A stretch of DNA of 64,000 bases from assembly GCF_014203715.1 (NCBI RefSeq), contig NZ_JACHJP010000001.1:846432-910431 (forward strand). The letters are read 5' to 3'. Below the pieces are notes generated by a model. It made no database searches and had not been told where the DNA came from. It worked only from the letters and a program-made list of their open reading frames with translations. Both the position numbers and the translations under genes were made by a program. The DNA comes from Streptosporangium saharense. GTDB taxonomy: Bacteria; Actinomycetota; Actinomycetes; Streptosporangiales; Streptosporangiaceae. Positions 21,118-33,923 of the stretch are shown here, piece after piece (position 1 is the stretch's first letter; the number at the start of each line of letters is the position of its first letter).

Positions 21118-21190
21118 GCCGACGTAGCTCAATCGGCAGAGCAACAGTCTTGTAAACTGTAGGTCAGGGGTTCGATTCCCCTCGTCGGCT
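21118..21190 (+). tRNA. tRNA-Thr (anticodon TGT)
   Basis: The cloverleaf is complete: acceptor GCCGACG (21118-21124) with CGTCGGC (21183-21189), D-arm GCTC/GAGC, anticodon stem ACAGT/ACTGT with loop CTTGTAA (anticodon TGT at 21151-21153), T-arm AGGGG-TTCGATT-CCCCT, discriminator T. CCA is not encoded. It stands at the left edge of the accessory region, a typical integration site, although no second copy of its 3' end was seen in the window. Confidence 0.97.
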
Positions 21191-21194
21191 CGTG

Positions 21195-29117: not shown

Positions 29118-29240
29118 ATGGCTGAGGATGACGACGTGCGCCTTGGCGCGCAGGGTGAATGGATCAGCCAGAACGGCACCGGGCCGAAGCAGACCGTGTG
29201 GGTGAAGTGCAAGGCGTGTAGCGGAACAGGGCGGAGATGA
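29118..29240 (+). CDS. Tiny protein (40 aa) with one CxxCxGxG element
   Basis: ATG 29118 is 6 nt after TACGGT (leaderless type). The 40-residue product starts acidic (MAEDDDVRLG) and ends VKCKACSGTGRR, a DnaJ-type half zinc finger. Its stop overlaps the start of the next ORF (ATGA, 29237-29240), so translation of the two is coupled. It is too short for usual gene finders; the promoter and the overlap support it. Confidence 0.6.
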   Translation: MAEDDDVRLGAQGEWISQNGTGPKQTVWVKCKACSGTGRR

Positions 29241-29539
29241 CCGACCCGATCACCTGCCCGGAGTGCGAGGGGCGCAAAGGACAGCACCTGGGGGAGCTGT
29301 TTCTCCGGTGCCGGTTCTGCGGGGGGCTCGGCTGGGTGGGTGATCACAACGAACCCGCCGAACGCGGGGAGCGCCCGCCCCCGGAGCCACCACCGGCGTG
29401 GGAACACAAGGTGTGGCGAGACCCGGTCGTCGTCGCGGCGCTGCCATGCCGGTACTGCCTCGGCGCCCGAACCGTGTCGCACATCGACGAGAAATCCCGA
29501 CGAATGACCACGGCGGCCTGCCCGGCGTGTGTGGCGTGA
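29237..29539 (+). CDS. Small CxxC-rich (DnaJ-type zinc finger-like) protein
   Basis: 100 aa with four CxxC-type motifs: CPECEGRKG, CRFCGGLGW, CRYCLGA and CPACVA, enough for two zinc sites of DnaJ central-domain type. A Pro-rich, negatively charged linker separates the halves. No J domain. Coupled to the preceding 40-aa ORF, which adds another half finger. Located next to the CRISPR array leader. Role unknown; nucleic-acid or protein binding is possible. Confidence 0.7.
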   Translation: MTDPITCPECEGRKGQHLGELFLRCRFCGGLGWVGDHNEPAERGERPPPEPPPAWEHKVWRDPVVVAALPCRYCLGARTVSHIDEKSRRMTTAACPACVA

Positions 29540-29858
29540 CCGAACACGGGAGCCACGGCCGAGGAGGAGGTCGCGGCTCGGCCTGCCGTGTGGGGATCTG
29601 CGTGAGGGGGTCCGCTGGAGGGGCGCTGACTTCGTGGAAGTGCCGAAGCCTCATGTCGTGTGGAGCAGCGGGCTTTTGAAGGTGATTCTGAGGGCTGGGT
29701 TGCGTCTGGAGTCGGGGGAGGGAAAACTTGTGGGCCTGGCCGGATTCCACAAGATGATCAACGCTCTGACCTGCACTTCTGCACTACCGCCGGACCGCTG
29801 CAGAAACAGTCCGTCCTCTCCCTGTCTTGCCCTGTCTGACCTGGGACTTTACTCTCGG
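29540..29858. other. Presumed CRISPR leader region
   Basis: No credible gene. The stretch next to the first repeat is pyrimidine-rich and somewhat lower in GC (CTGTCTTGCCCTGTCTGACC... TTTACTCTCG). Since the degenerate repeat is at the other end, this side should be the leader. Confidence 0.45.
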
Positions 29859-30210
29859 GTCGCTCATCACCCTGAAGGGTTCGCAACACGATCCCTTGGA
29901 TGATTTCGATCATTTCGTCAGGGTCGCTCATCACCCTGAAGGGTTCGCAACCCCGGCCACACCGACCGGAAGATGCGGTGACCGTCCTGTCGCTCATCAC
30001 CCTGAAGGGTTCGCAACAGGTCGGCCATACACGCGGCCTGCGCCGCGCTGAGTCGCTCATCACCCTGAAGGGTTCGCAACCGGGCTTGTGGCGGCGCCCC
30101 TTGGGGGCGGGCAGCGTCGCTCATCACCCTGAAGGGTTCGCAACTCGATCTCACTTCCCCGGTAGCCCAGGTCGTCCCCGAGTCGCTCATCACCCTGGAG
30201 GGTTCGTGAC
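29859..30210 (+). CRISPR. CRISPR array, 6 repeats and 5 spacers, no cas genes in window
   Basis: A 29-nt repeat beginning GTCGCTCATC, with the inner hairpin ACCCT-GA-AGGGT and ending TTCGCAAC, occurs at 29859-29887, 29923-29951, 29989-30017, 30052-30080, 30116-30144 (identical) and 30182-30210 (three changes). Spacers are 35, 37, 34, 35 and 37 nt and differ from each other. The degenerate last copy sets the orientation: leader on the left. The subtype cannot be set without cas genes. The last repeat overlaps the 3' end of the BldC-like gene on the other strand. Confidence 0.95.
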
Positions 30211-30438
30211 TTGGGTGGTTGGGGGGTTGATGAGAGCGTTGATGTCGCTTTGGCGGTAGCGGCGCTGCCCGCTGGGCGTTTTGAGGGAGGGGATCTTCCC
30301 GGTGAGGGACCAGCGGTTGACGGTTTTGGGGTCGACGCCGAAGATGTGGGCGACTTCGCCGGGGGTGAGGAGGCGGTCGGTGGTTTCTGGGCCGGTGGTG
30401 AAGGTGCCGTCGGGGGTGACGGTCTTGCTCGGGGGCAT
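30190..30438 (-). CDS. BldC-like MerR-type HTH protein (excisionase-like)
   Basis: 82 aa from ATG 30438, with AAGGAG upstream. Residues about 22-70 (LLTPGEVAHIFGVDPKTVNRWSLTGKIPSLKTPSGQRRYRQSDI) are a MerR/BldC winged HTH, also the fold of phage and ICE excisionases. The last seven codons (…VTNPPG) and the stop lie inside the degenerate CRISPR repeat 6. BldC is a developmental regulator in Streptomyces; this diverged copy in an accessory region could instead be an excisionase or local regulator. Confidence 0.82.
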   Translation of the reverse strand: MPPSKTVTPDGTFTTGPETTDRLLTPGEVAHIFGVDPKTVNRWSLTGKIPSLKTPSGQRRYRQSDINALINPPTTQVTNPPG

Positions 30439-30449
30439 GGGGGGCTCCT

Positions 30450-30689
30450 TCAGTAGCGGAGGTTGTGGAGGATCTTGTCGTGGTGGGCGAGTGCCCTGAT
30501 CAACCCGTGCAGGGTGGTACGGCCCAGCACGTCGCGGGCCCCGGCCTTTCGCTGGTCGGGGCGCAGCGGGTAGTAGCGGGTGGCCCACCAGCGGGGCAGT
30601 CCGGGCAGGTCGCGTTGTTCGTAGTACCAGCCGGGGTGGGTGCTGGTGAGCACGTCGATCACACGTCGCTCGTACTCGTCATCGGTCAT
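30450..30689 (-). CDS. Small 'PGW' domain protein, paralog 5 of 5
   Basis: 79 aa from ATG 30689. It contains HPGWYYEQRDL..RWWATRYYPLRPDQRKAG followed by TLHGLIRALAHHDKI, which aligns with the P-G-W / W-A-x-R / L..AL..(Q/H)D pattern of four other small proteins at 31110-32385. Next gene (BldC-like) starts 11 nt downstream on the same strand. Function unknown. Confidence 0.7.
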   Translation of the reverse strand: MTDDEYERRVIDVLTSTHPGWYYEQRDLPGLPRWWATRYYPLRPDQRKAGARDVLGRTTLHGLIRALAHHDKILHNLRY

Positions 30690-31109
30690 CGTCGTCTCAC
30701 TTCGGAGGACGGACAGGAAACCCGCCTCACGCGGGGAGGTCTCGCCGGTCAGGCGGGGGGGTGCCCGGCCCCGAGCCGGGGAGCACGGGCCGGGCACCCG
30801 GTAGGGGAGTTCTCACGGGAATGGAGCGGGTGTTCTTGCGGGGAGAGGGAGATGGGTGCCCGGCCCCGAGCCGGGGAGCAGGGGGCGGGCACCCGGTAGG
30901 AGGACCGGTCCCGCGTGTGGGGACGCGGGACCGGTACGCGAGGCGGCTCCCCCTTCCCCAACACGCCCGGCCCTTGGGAAAGCCGTGTCCCGGCGTGCGT
31001 GGGAGCCACCTTGCGGGGGTGTGCGGCTCAAGCCCTCCAACCTGAGCCGCACGCTTGGGGGTACGGCGGGCAGCGGGTGGGATGAGGTCCCACTGCCCGC
31101 CGTACCGGC
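30690..31109. repeat. Hairpin-rich noncoding stretch (five or six large inverted repeats)
   Basis: Back-to-back perfect or near-perfect hairpins: GGGTGCCCGGCCC/GGGCCGGGCACCC (30759-30799), a diverged copy of the same (30854-30893), ACCGGTCCCGCGT/ACGCGGGACCGGT (30904-30935), a longer-range GGCTCCC/GGGAGCC pair (about 30945-31007), GTGCGGCTCA/TGAGCCGCAC (31021-31052) and GTACGGCGGGCAG/CTGCCCGCCGTAC (31061-31105). The last follows the stop of the gene at 31110 and can terminate it. No protein reading here is credible. Confidence 0.8.
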
Positions 31110-31502
31110 TTAGGGGCGCAGAAGTCTGCGCAGGGCGGGAGGCCGGTAACCGGTCCGACCGGCCCGGAGGGCGCGGGTGGCAGCGACGGCCCGGATGCTC
31201 GGCGGCACCACCGGGGGTGCCTGAGCGGTCAGGCGAATGGACACCTGCCTGGGCGCCTGTACGGGCACCTGAGCGGGTGTCTGGGCGGTCAGCTTGCGGT
31301 CCAGCTCCTCCGCCGACTCGGCGCGTACCAGCAACACGGCCCCGGGGGTCGGCCTGCCGGACAGGACGTGCCGGTAGGCGCTCCACAACCCGGTCTGCGC
31401 GTTGGGGAAGACCAGCCAGCCCGGGTGAGCCGTTTGCACGGTGTTACAGGTTCGATCTGAAAGCCCGGCCTCTGGACGAGACGCCCCGAGCGATGGCATC
31501 AT
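31110..31502 (-). CDS. 'PGW' domain protein, paralog 4, with Pro/Gln-rich tail
   Basis: 130 aa. The domain part is AHPGWLVFPNAQTGLWSAYRHVL...ESAEELDRKL, the same order of P-G-W, an aromatic in place of W-A and a final L-rich helix as its neighbours. A tail with repeated TAQTPAQVPVQAP and a basic end follows. Its start overlaps the stop of the preceding gene (31499) by 4 nt. Function unknown. Confidence 0.65.
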   Translation of the reverse strand: MMPSLGASRPEAGLSDRTCNTVQTAHPGWLVFPNAQTGLWSAYRHVLSGRPTPGAVLLVRAESAEELDRKLTAQTPAQVPVQAPRQVSIRLTAQAPPVVPPSIRAVAATRALRAGRTGYRPPALRRLLRP

Positions 31503-31873
31503 GCCGCCCTCCCACCCGGACGCCGCCGCCTGGCCGTGCCCCGGTAACGCGTTCCTGTCGTGTCCCGGTCGCGCGGCTCAGTGGGCGGACGCTCCTCGCC
31601 GCCGTGCTGGGGCGGCGCGGCCTGAACCAGGCGGACCATCTCCGCTTCCTGCATCCGCTCCTCCAACCCCTCGGAGGTAGCGTGCTCGACGATGACGGCC
31701 TGCGGGCTGTCCCAGGAGGCCACGGCAGAGAAGCTCCGCTTGCTCAGGCTGTAGAACACCGTCCACTCAGGCCACACCTGGCTGAGCCGCTCGGCCTCCG
31801 CCCGCGCGGGTCCGTCCCACACTCGCCGATACACCAGGCTGTACGGCTGGCCCTCCCGGTGCCGTCCCGTCAC
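31499..31873 (-). CDS. 'PGW' domain protein, paralog 3 (diverged: P-E-W)
   Basis: 124 aa. A short leader (SLVYRRVWDGPARAEAERLS) precedes the domain VWPEWTVFYSLSKRSFSAVASWD...SEGLEERMQEAE, with P-E-W in place of P-G-W and no W-A-x-R. The C-terminus is an Arg/Pro-rich tail. It overlaps 4 nt with both neighbours, so the three genes 32097-31110 form one coupled operon. Confidence 0.65.
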   Translation of the reverse strand: MTGRHREGQPYSLVYRRVWDGPARAEAERLSQVWPEWTVFYSLSKRSFSAVASWDSPQAVIVEHATSEGLEERMQEAEMVRLVQAAPPQHGGEERPPTEPRDRDTTGTRYRGTARRRRPGGRAA

Positions 31874-32097
31874 GAAGCCACCCCCTCAACAGCGGTCCGG
31901 GCCTTCTCCTCCTGCTCGGCTACGGCCTCCTGGACCTCCTCGAAGGTGTCGGCGTCCACGGCCGGTTCCACCCCGGCCCGCAACGCCGTACGCGGGAAAG
32001 CCCGGTTGCGGATGGCCCAGTACCGGCCGGTGTCACTGACGATCAACCGCCAGCCCGGGATCGCCGGGGCGGTCGTCGCGGCTTTACCATCGTGCAC
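31870..32097 (-). CDS. 'PGW' domain protein, paralog 2
   Basis: 75 aa, GTG start with AAAGGAG upstream. The sequence IPGWRLIVSDTGRYWAIRNRAFPRTALRAGVEPAVDADTFEEVQEAVAEQEEK keeps the full pattern P-G-W-x5-T-G-R-x-W-A-x-R-N-R. Acidic helix at the end. Overlaps the next gene by 4 nt. Function unknown. Confidence 0.7.
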   Translation of the reverse strand: MHDGKAATTAPAIPGWRLIVSDTGRYWAIRNRAFPRTALRAGVEPAVDADTFEEVQEAVAEQEEKARTAVEGVAS

Positions 32098-32169
32098 GGT
32101 CGCGCTCCTTTACGATCAAGAACATGTCCGGACGCCGAGAACGACCGGTAGGTCCGCCACCCCTGACGT

Positions 32170-32385
32170 TCAGCCAGCCTCGGCGGCCAATCGGTCCTGG
32201 TGCCGGAGCTGTTCGACGAGCTGGTGCACGTCCTCGTCGCTGACGGTCTGCTCCAAGCCCTGTTCCATCTGCGCACCGGTGAGCCGCCGGTTGCGGGTCG
32301 CCCAGAGACGACCGGTCGAACTTCGCCAGATCGTCCATCCAGGAAACGCGGCCTGAAGGTCCGCGAGGATCACCGGCTTGCTCAT
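32170..32385 (-). CDS. 'PGW' domain protein, paralog 1 (most complete)
   Basis: 71 aa: FPGWTIWRSSTGRLWATRNRRLTGAQMEQGLEQTVSDEDVHQLVEQLRHQDRL. It is the cleanest example of the shared domain (P-G-W, S-T-G-R-x-W-A-x-R-N-R, G-x3-T-V, then a helix). First gene of the array, divergent from the DUF5919 regulator. The W-A-x-R and final helix suggest a small helix-strand module, possibly for binding. Function unknown. Confidence 0.72.
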   Translation of the reverse strand: MSKPVILADLQAAFPGWTIWRSSTGRLWATRNRRLTGAQMEQGLEQTVSDEDVHQLVEQLRHQDRLAAEAG

Positions 32386-32439
32386 GCAACAAGGTTGCTG
32401 AGAGTAGGAGGATTTTCACACCCCGTTTCCAGGACGTGA

Positions 32440-32472
32440 GGGACGTTCAGCGCTACCGTCAAAAAACGTCCC
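32440..32472. promoter_or_regulatory. GGACGT inverted repeat in the divergent promoter region
   Basis: GGGACGTT (32440-32447) and AACGTCCC (32465-32472) are exact complements 17 nt apart. A further GGACGT half lies at 32432. The site sits between the first 'PGW' gene and the DUF5919 regulator and may be bound by the latter. Confidence 0.5.
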
Positions 32473-32501
32473 CCATGTCCTTCCGCCGATTCGAGGCAGT
32501 A

Positions 32502-33263
32502 GTGACCAACGACTCTCTCCGCCACGCCATGGCCGATGCCAGATTTACCGAAAAAGACCTCGCCGAACGGTGCAAGGTGGATGTCAAAACGGTGTCCCGC
32601 TGGCTGACGGACGAAGGGCGCATGCCCCACCCACGCCACCGGTGGGCCGCCTCCGAAGCGTTGAAAGTGGATGAGTCCGTGCTGTGGCCCGACGCGATAC
32701 GTAACACGGTCAAAACCGGCCCGGACCGCGAGGTCCTGACGGTCTACCCCTACCGGTCCGCCTGCCCCAAAAGCGTGTGGCGCTCCCTGATCACCAACGC
32801 CACCTCAACCATCGTGCTGGCCGGATACACCAACTACTTCCTGTGGCTGGAACACCCCAACTTCGCCACCGTCCTCAAACGCAAAGCCGAACAGGGATGC
32901 CGCATCCGCTTCCTCGTCGGCGACCCCGACAGCGAGGTCACCCGCCGCCGCGAACAGGTCGAGGCCGTACCACTGACCGTCTCCACCCGCATCCGCATCA
33001 CCCTGGCCGAACTCGACCCCCTCAAGAACCTCTCCGGCATCGAGGCCCGCTTCGGCGACGAACACATCGCCCTGTCGGTCTTCCAGTTCGACGACGAGAT
33101 GCTCGTCACCCCCCACCTGGCCAACCTGGTCGGCCACGACTCCCCGATGCTGCACCTCAAACGCCGCCAGGACGACGGCCTCTACGACCGCTTCGCCTAC
33201 CACGCCAACGAACTGTGGCAACACGGCCGCGACATCTGGAACAACGAACCCACCACCACCTGA
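32502..33263 (+). CDS. XRE HTH regulator with DUF5919 domain
   Basis: About 253 aa from GTG 32502 (GAGG 6 nt upstream; ATG readings further upstream lack an RBS). Residues about 1-60 are an HTH (LRHAMADARFTEKDLAERCKVDVKTVSRWLTDEGRMPHPRHRW). The rest matches the DUF5919 type of actinobacterial regulators, with a phospholipase-D-like core pattern (ATSTIVLAGYTNYFLWLEHPNF..., CRIRFLVGDPDSEV). Such proteins are thought to sense a small molecule through the C-terminal fold. It faces the 'PGW' array across a divergent promoter. Confidence 0.8.
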   Translation: MTNDSLRHAMADARFTEKDLAERCKVDVKTVSRWLTDEGRMPHPRHRWAASEALKVDESVLWPDAIRNTVKTGPDREVLTVYPYRSACPKSVWRSLITNATSTIVLAGYTNYFLWLEHPNFATVLKRKAEQGCRIRFLVGDPDSEVTRRREQVEAVPLTVSTRIRITLAELDPLKNLSGIEARFGDEHIALSVFQFDDEMLVTPHLANLVGHDSPMLHLKRRQDDGLYDRFAYHANELWQHGRDIWNNEPTTT

Positions 33264-33284: not shown

Positions 33285-33923
33285 ATGGCCGTGCACTCGC
33301 GCTATCTGGACCTTGCCACGCAAATCCGGACACGGATCGAGGCGGGCGAGTGGGAACCCGGGGCCAGGCTGCCGCGACTTGATGACTTCGCCGCGCAGTA
33401 CGGTGCCAACCGCGACACCATCGGCCGGGCCATCGCCGTCCTGGAGTCAGAGGGCTACGTCTGGGCGGTCCAGGGGCGAGGAATCATCGTCCGGCACGGC
33501 ATGATGCGCCTGCGCAGACCACGCGGCAACCTCGTCAAACGCAACGTCGCCACCGACGGCCCCGGCTACTCCTTCCCCTCAGCCTCCGGCCAGGAAGTCT
33601 GGAAACACCATGTTCCGCCCACGGTGTCGGATGAACCCCTGACCGACCCGCGTATCGCCAAACTGCTCGGCGTCCCACCCGGCACGACCGTGACCCGGCG
33701 CTTCCGCGTCACCGGCCCACAGTCGGAACCCCCGTTCCAGATCGCCGTCTCCTGGATCCACCCACGCGGCCTGGCCGACGCCCCCGAGGTGACCGCTCAG
33801 GCCACCGGGCCGGGCGACTGGCTGTATCGGCTGGAGCAGGCCGGACACTGGCCCATCTCGTGGATCGAGTTCCATCGCGCCCGCATGCCCACCAAAAACG
33901 AGGCCGCCCTAACGTCACCGTGA
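33285..33923 (+). CDS. GntR/HutC-family regulator, UTRA domain damaged by a deletion
   Basis: 212 aa. The N-terminal winged helix (YLDLATQIRTRIEAGEWEPGARLPRLDDFAAQYGANRDTIGRAIAVLESEGYV) is intact. The UTRA domain starts normally and runs to RARMPTKNEAAL, then the frame ends at TSP. The next frame immediately continues NVTVIVIDMKP (33911-33951), which is the normal last strand of UTRA. The loop between the two strands is missing, so an internal deletion with frame loss is likely. DNA binding may remain; ligand sensing probably does not. Follows the DUF5919 gene by 21 nt. Confidence 0.7.
   Translation: MAVHSRYLDLATQIRTRIEAGEWEPGARLPRLDDFAAQYGANRDTIGRAIAVLESEGYVWAVQGRGIIVRHGMMRLRRPRGNLVKRNVATDGPGYSFPSASGQEVWKHHVPPTVSDEPLTDPRIAKLLGVPPGTTVTRRFRVTGPQSEPPFQIAVSWIHPRGLADAPEVTAQATGPGDWLYRLEQAGHWPISWIEFHRARMPTKNEAALTSP

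Follow-up and report, generated by a model that had tools for sequence, protein, structure and literature searches.

By profile comparison, the five small proteins encoded by the genes termed here F1 to F5 constitute one undescribed small-domain superfamily, and four of these genes belong to a cassette with the order F4-F3-F2-F1-BldC-like gene, of which an F3 profile finds 23 copies in the genome of Streptosporangium saharense. In the window, that is, the whole analysed stretch of 64,000 nucleotides, the gene layout indicates that a pair made up of F5 and a DUF5919-type regulator is joined to the front of this standard cassette. Its role is more likely gene control than enzymatic defence. As shown in Table 1, all five open reading frames proved to be real at the coordinates given by the first-pass annotation of the window, and all lie on the minus strand. 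That annotation had described three genes overlapping by 4 nt; three genes (F4, F3 and F2) are indeed joined, but by only two overlaps, F4/F3 at 31870-31873 and F3/F2 at 31499-31502, with a spacing of 72 nt between F5 and F4 and of 420 nt between F2 and F1. The TGRxWAxR element which it ascribed to the whole set is literal in F4 and F5 but reads PRWWATR in F1, TGLWSAYR in F2 and KRSFSAVA in F3, and the BldC-like gene closing the cassette had been overlooked. A tRNA-Thr gene (21118-21191) lies upstream of the variable stretch that contains the cassette, and two short CxxC-rich open reading frames, zinc-ribbon-like by eye, are present at 29120-29539, directly left of the CRISPR array.

Table 1. 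Features of the F cassette and its surroundings, in window coordinates
Feature	Position	Strand	Remarks
Leader, ~110 bp	29750..29858	+	common to the genome's other arrays of the same type
CRISPR array	29859..30210	+	six 29-nt repeats, last degenerate; five spacers of 34-37 nt
BldC-like (MerR-type HTH_17) DNA-binding protein	30190..30438	-	last gene of cassette
F1	30450..30689	-	79 aa
Hairpin copy 1, F2-F1 gap	30759..30799	-	coordinates derived from motif match
Hairpin copy 2, F2-F1 gap	30854..30894	-	coordinates derived from motif match
F2	31110..31502	-	130 aa
F3	31499..31873	-	124 aa; hallmark gene of cassette
F4	31870..32097	-	75 aa; gene 1 of standard cassette; domain almost invariant across 19 genome copies
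F5	32170..32385	-	71 aa; foremost of the five genes; DUF5919-type regulator divergent from it
HTH protein, sub-threshold DUF5919 / PLD-like C-terminal part	32436..33263	+	faces F5
GntR-family regulator	33285..33923	+	shorter than near-identical L042 relative

Comparison of small alignments by hhalign joined F4 with F5 (E 7e-14), F1 with F5 (2e-7), F1 with F4 (3e-5) and F2 with F3 (6e-4), and left F4 unjoined with F2 (5e-3, probability 6.7) and with F3 (0.14, probability 0.4). The F4-F3 homology was visible only with iterated profiles, small alignments being insufficient for it. With an iterated HMM, F1, F2, F4 and F5 fell in a single set of 127 domains, to which the iterated F3 profile aligned with probability 95.6, E 1.2e-8 and a score of 40.9; the highest score among 100 column-shuffled controls was 15.9, and the reversed profile reached 12.0. 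This rules out a chance resemblance, and the profile search which the first-pass annotation had proposed thus returns F1 to F5 as one superfamily. We take their resemblance to be homology because the profile comparisons stand above the controls and the AlphaFold domain models are confident. The annotation had also failed to recognise the family, and this was borne out, as F1 to F5 gave no match beyond chance level in Pfam, NCBIfam, PHROGs and PADLOC, the last assigning them to none of its anti-phage defence families. Eighteen family members scanned together against Pfam gave one chance-level match, sequence searches against solved structures gave chance-level matches only, and no publication on the family or on such cassettes was found in the literature on DUF5919, Streptosporangium CRISPR, DUF397/XRE and BldC. 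The median pN/pS between genome copies was 0.29 for F1, 0.45 for F2, 0.47 for F3 and 0.31 for F4, and these reading frames are under purifying selection.

The set had been taken for a locally expanded small domain. This view is not tenable, because the gene order belongs to an old cassette of which 23 copies include F3, and the dispersal of its copies across the genome rules out a local tandem expansion. F5 alone gave 52 matches (E up to 1) within its own 8.5-Mb genome, and the F4-F3-F2-F1-BldC-like order is repeated there at about 69-85% DNA identity (longest alignments shown), with four further cassette fragments at contig ends, which may be halves of fewer cassettes. One copy of F1 (L050, 6034-6320) is split over two frames and looks disrupted. 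At L038, L040, L041, L045, L047 and L049 we noticed a Cys-rich open reading frame (CGCF...CARCGHSPYAHGC) upstream of F4, in several copies in frame into it, which could be an extra cassette gene or a fusion. The cassette order is found in part in other genera as well. Of 150 genomes sampled from the host's family, 37 (the window's included) had F3; they represent 25 of 68 genera, and outside the window's genome the copy number reached 16. Nine named loci with F3 come from S. violaceochromogenes, S. carneum and S. minutum. Across the class, F3 occurred in at least 24 of 394 genomes, all of them from the host's family (24 of the 41 listed for it), and the F4/F5 type in at least 21 of 394, one of them outside this family; as scoring was confined to 13 or 15 candidates in each genome, these figures are lower bounds and absences are weak.

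F3 is nearly always accompanied by a sensor-type regulator upstream. We fetched 100 regions, which with the window gave 101 loci, the weaker F3 matches of the 150-genome survey being set aside, and 88 were counted after dropping 13 with no good F3 match or less than 4 kb upstream. A regulator of one of five clusters lay within 4 kb upstream of F3 in 85 of the 88, as against 8 of 80 control 4-kb windows drawn from seven of the same genomes, a contrast that is somewhat flattered because the test loci themselves served to define the clusters. XRE-DUF5753 regulators were found in 38 loci, TPR type a in 35, XRE-TPR in 29, TPR type b in 28 and GntR in 22; these counts overlap, since a single gene may be hit by several models. 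The clusters are broad families with representatives in Pfam, the TPR-type representative L086 having no Pfam match at 1e-3, and the loci L116, L121 and L141 had no regulator of the five clusters within 4 kb upstream. Most regulators are divergent from the cassette, while XRE-TPR genes are mostly on its strand (22/25). The cassettes of L044 and L048 share about 84% DNA identity, yet the former has an XRE-TPR gene on the cassette strand and the latter a divergent TPR-type regulator. The claim that the set has a regulator of its own therefore fails as regards a fixed partner: several kinds of sensor are swapped between cassettes, and only F5 goes with the DUF5919 type. The window's GntR protein is nearly identical over about 190 residues to the one encoded at L042 (3781-4737), where a PP2C-like gene and an I-B array follow, and it ends earlier; being near-identical but shortened, it makes the window seem to hold a relocated, shortened copy of the L042 arm.

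The divergent DUF5919 regulator of the first-pass annotation is real and faces the set, but its match to PF19319 (DUF5919) reached only 20.8 bits, under the gathering score of 23.5. It has close relatives in other genera, and the proposed check on conservation of the pair came out in its favour, since an F-family gene was divergent from the regulator in 15 of 25 close homologues with fetched flanks, the window included, and the pair is retained in several genera. F5 was divergent from a DUF5919-type regulator in all 11 best-scoring loci fetched (the window among them). In the remaining 10 of the 25 close homologues and in 5 of 5 distant ones we observed no divergent F-family gene. Because the divergent pair is conserved in close homologues, we regard F5 and its regulator as a separate unit.

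Small genes with 4-nt overlaps, many copies and HTH neighbours are also the marks of a toxin-antitoxin or addiction module, in which one F protein would act as toxin and be neutralised by the others or by the HTH protein, and which would account for the many dispersed copies. DUF397 genes were present in 25 of the 88 F3 loci (the neighbouring gene at L043 matches DUF397 in Pfam), and XRE-DUF397 pairs are proposed as such systems in the consulted part of PMC10364602; the same part, on the other hand, describes one XRE-DUF397 pair that activates antibiotic production. Pfam, NCBIfam, PHROGs, PADLOC and Foldseek returned neither a toxin family nor a toxin fold, and the family of the HTH partner differs between similar cassettes, and hence we consider a toxin-antitoxin function unlikely.

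The CRISPR array noted beside the set is real, and in the window's genome its adjacency is not accidental. Its Rfam match (CRISPR-DR12) was below threshold, and it is of type I-B because its leader and repeat are like those of the array beside a type I-B cas operon; a "type III-like" label was ruled out, the matching operon being I-B. This operon, cas8b-cas7b-cas5/cas3b-cas4b-cas1b-cas2b according to PADLOC, lies elsewhere in the genome and starts about 5 kb from an F cassette; the array after its cas2 (L205) combines a similar leader with a variant repeat, and 13 kb separate it from the nearest F3. Elsewhere, L206 (G000:C1:1030000-1049900) contains a type III-type locus with a Csm3-like protein adjoining a CARF-HEPN protein, where a simple array finder detected no array. 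The repeat core of the window's array gave 74 matches genome-wide at up to 2 mismatches, grouped as 17 clusters that do not include the L205 array, and 14 of the 17 lay within 6 kb of a cassette (26 positions; expected fraction 3.7%, binomial 5e-18), a P value that is too small if arrays and cassettes were copied together, as the clusters are then not independent. Of the contig-end cassette fragments, three entered this count and the fourth, at the C13 end, was left out, as were the cas-linked variant-repeat array and two degenerate repeats in L071. The 14 clusters all agree in relative strand; 12 of them are upstream and 2, including that of the window, downstream. Two of the other three are at contig ends, oriented so that a cassette would lie off the contig, and no F gene was seen there; the third is a lone degenerate match at 12.7 kb. 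I-E-type repeat clusters behaved similarly, 7 of 13 lying within 6 kb of a cassette (P 1e-7). Many pairs of arrays share little beyond 110-205 bp of leader and some share 300-900 bp; at L037, L041 and L047 a GNAT-like acetyltransferase gene (by eye) adjoins the leader within 800-900 bp of shared sequence. Among 55 spacers no two have 14 nt or more in common, and the five of the window's array matched no phage or plasmid.

Arrays of at least three repeats were detected by an automatic finder in 11 of 26 regions of the same genome, the window's being additional, in 5 of 14 regions of S. violaceochromogenes (G101, in which the fetched regions cover 14 of 16 F3 matches), in 2 of 60 other F3 regions and in 0 of 20 controls. 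Outside the window's species and S. violaceochromogenes the link of array and cassette thus nearly vanishes. A search of eight genomes with the array repeat of genome G139, allowing 3 mismatches, gave matches in five; one of the three groups in G139 lay near an F3 match, and in G129 and G142 no listed group lay near the listed F3 matches. Since the consulted part of the paper on the S. roseum genome gives the number of CRISPR repeats as 0 (PMC3035251), not every Streptosporangium species is known to have CRISPR. The proximity and uniform strand of the I-B clusters, the I-E-type clusters, the cassette near the cas operon and the S. violaceochromogenes arrays would all suit an accessory module in which F proteins or the BldC-like protein would control or support the arrays next to them. 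Such a role is nevertheless improbable in our judgement, as arrays are so rare in other F3 regions, related-repeat arrays elsewhere mostly stand away from F3, the cas-adjoining array is not close to an F3 gene, no F protein matched PADLOC and the P values shrink too far under joint duplication. We read the association as co-dispersal of arrays and cassettes within one lineage, in keeping with the common leader, the separate spacers and the cas operon elsewhere, though simple co-dispersal would not strictly require arrays so regular in orientation and distance. The array repeats, the leader and the I-B cas operon of the same genome are those of a type I-B system, from which the many small arrays away from the operon and beside cassettes differ.

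AlphaFold models of F4 and F3, made from alignments of 18 and 10 sequences, were confident over the domain. The F4 model (mean pLDDT 86.7) has strands at 16-20, 26-30 and 46-49 and a helix at 52-74 and is without the first helix, and that of F3 (mean pLDDT 80.0) has a helix, three strands and a helix with a low-confidence N-terminal stretch. The predicted F fold is a tiny alpha-beta-beta-beta-alpha domain resembling a dsRBD in element order only. The gap between F2 and F1 contains a hairpin with an invariant core, found at 22 loci of the window's genome (21 copies aligned) and in 0 of 20 control regions; a window copy folds at -36.4 kcal/mol with a z of -3.1. Matches to its short-form pattern in this genome numbered seven, all of them at cassettes or cassette fragments, and the alignment holds a both-sided change in one sequence (L038), judged by eye with no formal covariation count. 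Together with the 11 dsRNA-binding proteins, judged by title, among the 50 Foldseek rows listed for F3, the F3 element order and this hairpin might suggest that the domain binds RNA hairpins, such as the F2-F1 hairpin, and regulates at the RNA level. We give this little credence, because Foldseek returned no significant neighbour for F3 (best E 0.087, TM 0.32, RNase III complexed with dsRNA) or for F4 (best E 1.7), the first helix is missing from F4, the family matches no solved structure by sequence and the short hairpin form is absent from seven other genomes having or possibly having F genes.

The BldC-like protein scored 42.9 bits with HTH_17 (cut-off 27) and 76.9 with the BldC subfamily NF033787 of NCBIfam, just under its cut-off of 77. 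As its gene followed F3 in only 24 of the 88 loci, mainly in the window's genome, it is not a general partner. Its weak matches to excisionase-type profiles (TIGR01764, 18.8 against a cut-off of 28.8 bits; phrog_66, E 1.6e-9) and the GntR neighbours could point to the remnant of an integrative element, with the BldC-like protein as excisionase, GntR as its regulator and the F genes as cargo. This is very improbable: no integrase, transposase or TraB-type gene was recognised on reading the 30 listed neighbour clusters, the reading from which a mobile-element remnant was disfavoured, where a lone replication-initiator-like cluster (by eye) occurred at 4 loci, and F5 had no match in phage records and one in plasmid records, on a replicon of 11.85 Mb. 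Scarcely any weight can be given to the bolder proposal that the F proteins are new dsRBD-like binders of their own operon's hairpin and of neighbouring array transcripts, which would make the arrays part of a locus-by-locus, sensor-gated RNA regulation in Streptosporangium and not only immune memory.

The reading we prefer, by analogy with the WhiJ/BldB loci and at a strength a little short of even, is that the cassette may be the output arm of a sensor-controlled regulatory module with which CRISPR arrays have been co-dispersed. It is consistent with an operon-like block encoding one to several small paralogous proteins of the predicted fold. The sensor HTH protein would control the F operon, and the small F proteins would pair with each other and with the sensor or the BldC-like protein, thereby tuning DNA binding by the partner; in Foldseek the F3 and F4 models had no structural neighbour backing such a protein-binding role. 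Paralogues from different loci could mix, so that about two dozen loci might act as one network, of the kind proposed for BldB and WhiJ in Streptomyces. F5 and the DUF5919-type regulator would form a second, separately conserved pair at the front of the cassette, and the I-B arrays would be ordinary immune arrays copied around along with cassettes.

In the consulted part of PMC10294661, BldB is described as not binding DNA and as hetero-oligomerising with paralogues encoded beside WhiJ genes. Like the BldB/WhiJ/AbaA and XRE-DUF397 systems of Streptomyces, the F genes encode small proteins beside HTH regulators in large paralogous sets, here HTH-adjacent at nearly all F3 loci and with F3 in 23 copies in one genome, and DUF397 and XRE-DUF5753 genes occur in many of the same loci. 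Unlike them, the F proteins (F1 to F5 and 18 members) match no DUF397 model (PF04149), and the F block has several tandem family members, a varying sensor family and, in the window's genome, a closing BldC-like gene. BldC binds direct repeats in DNA as cooperative multimers, according to the consulted part of PMC5859096; the last cassette gene resembles it in encoding a MerR-type HTH_17 protein but is multi-copy and stands at the end of a small-protein block.

The F family extends the actinomycete sensor/small-protein loci, which are linked with development and antibiotic production, by an uncatalogued small-protein superfamily. With around two dozen cassettes in one genome, it illustrates clearly how sensors are swapped while the output block stays fixed, and the co-location of arrays and cassettes makes it testable whether the arrays spread as passengers of repeated regulatory loci or have a part in their working.
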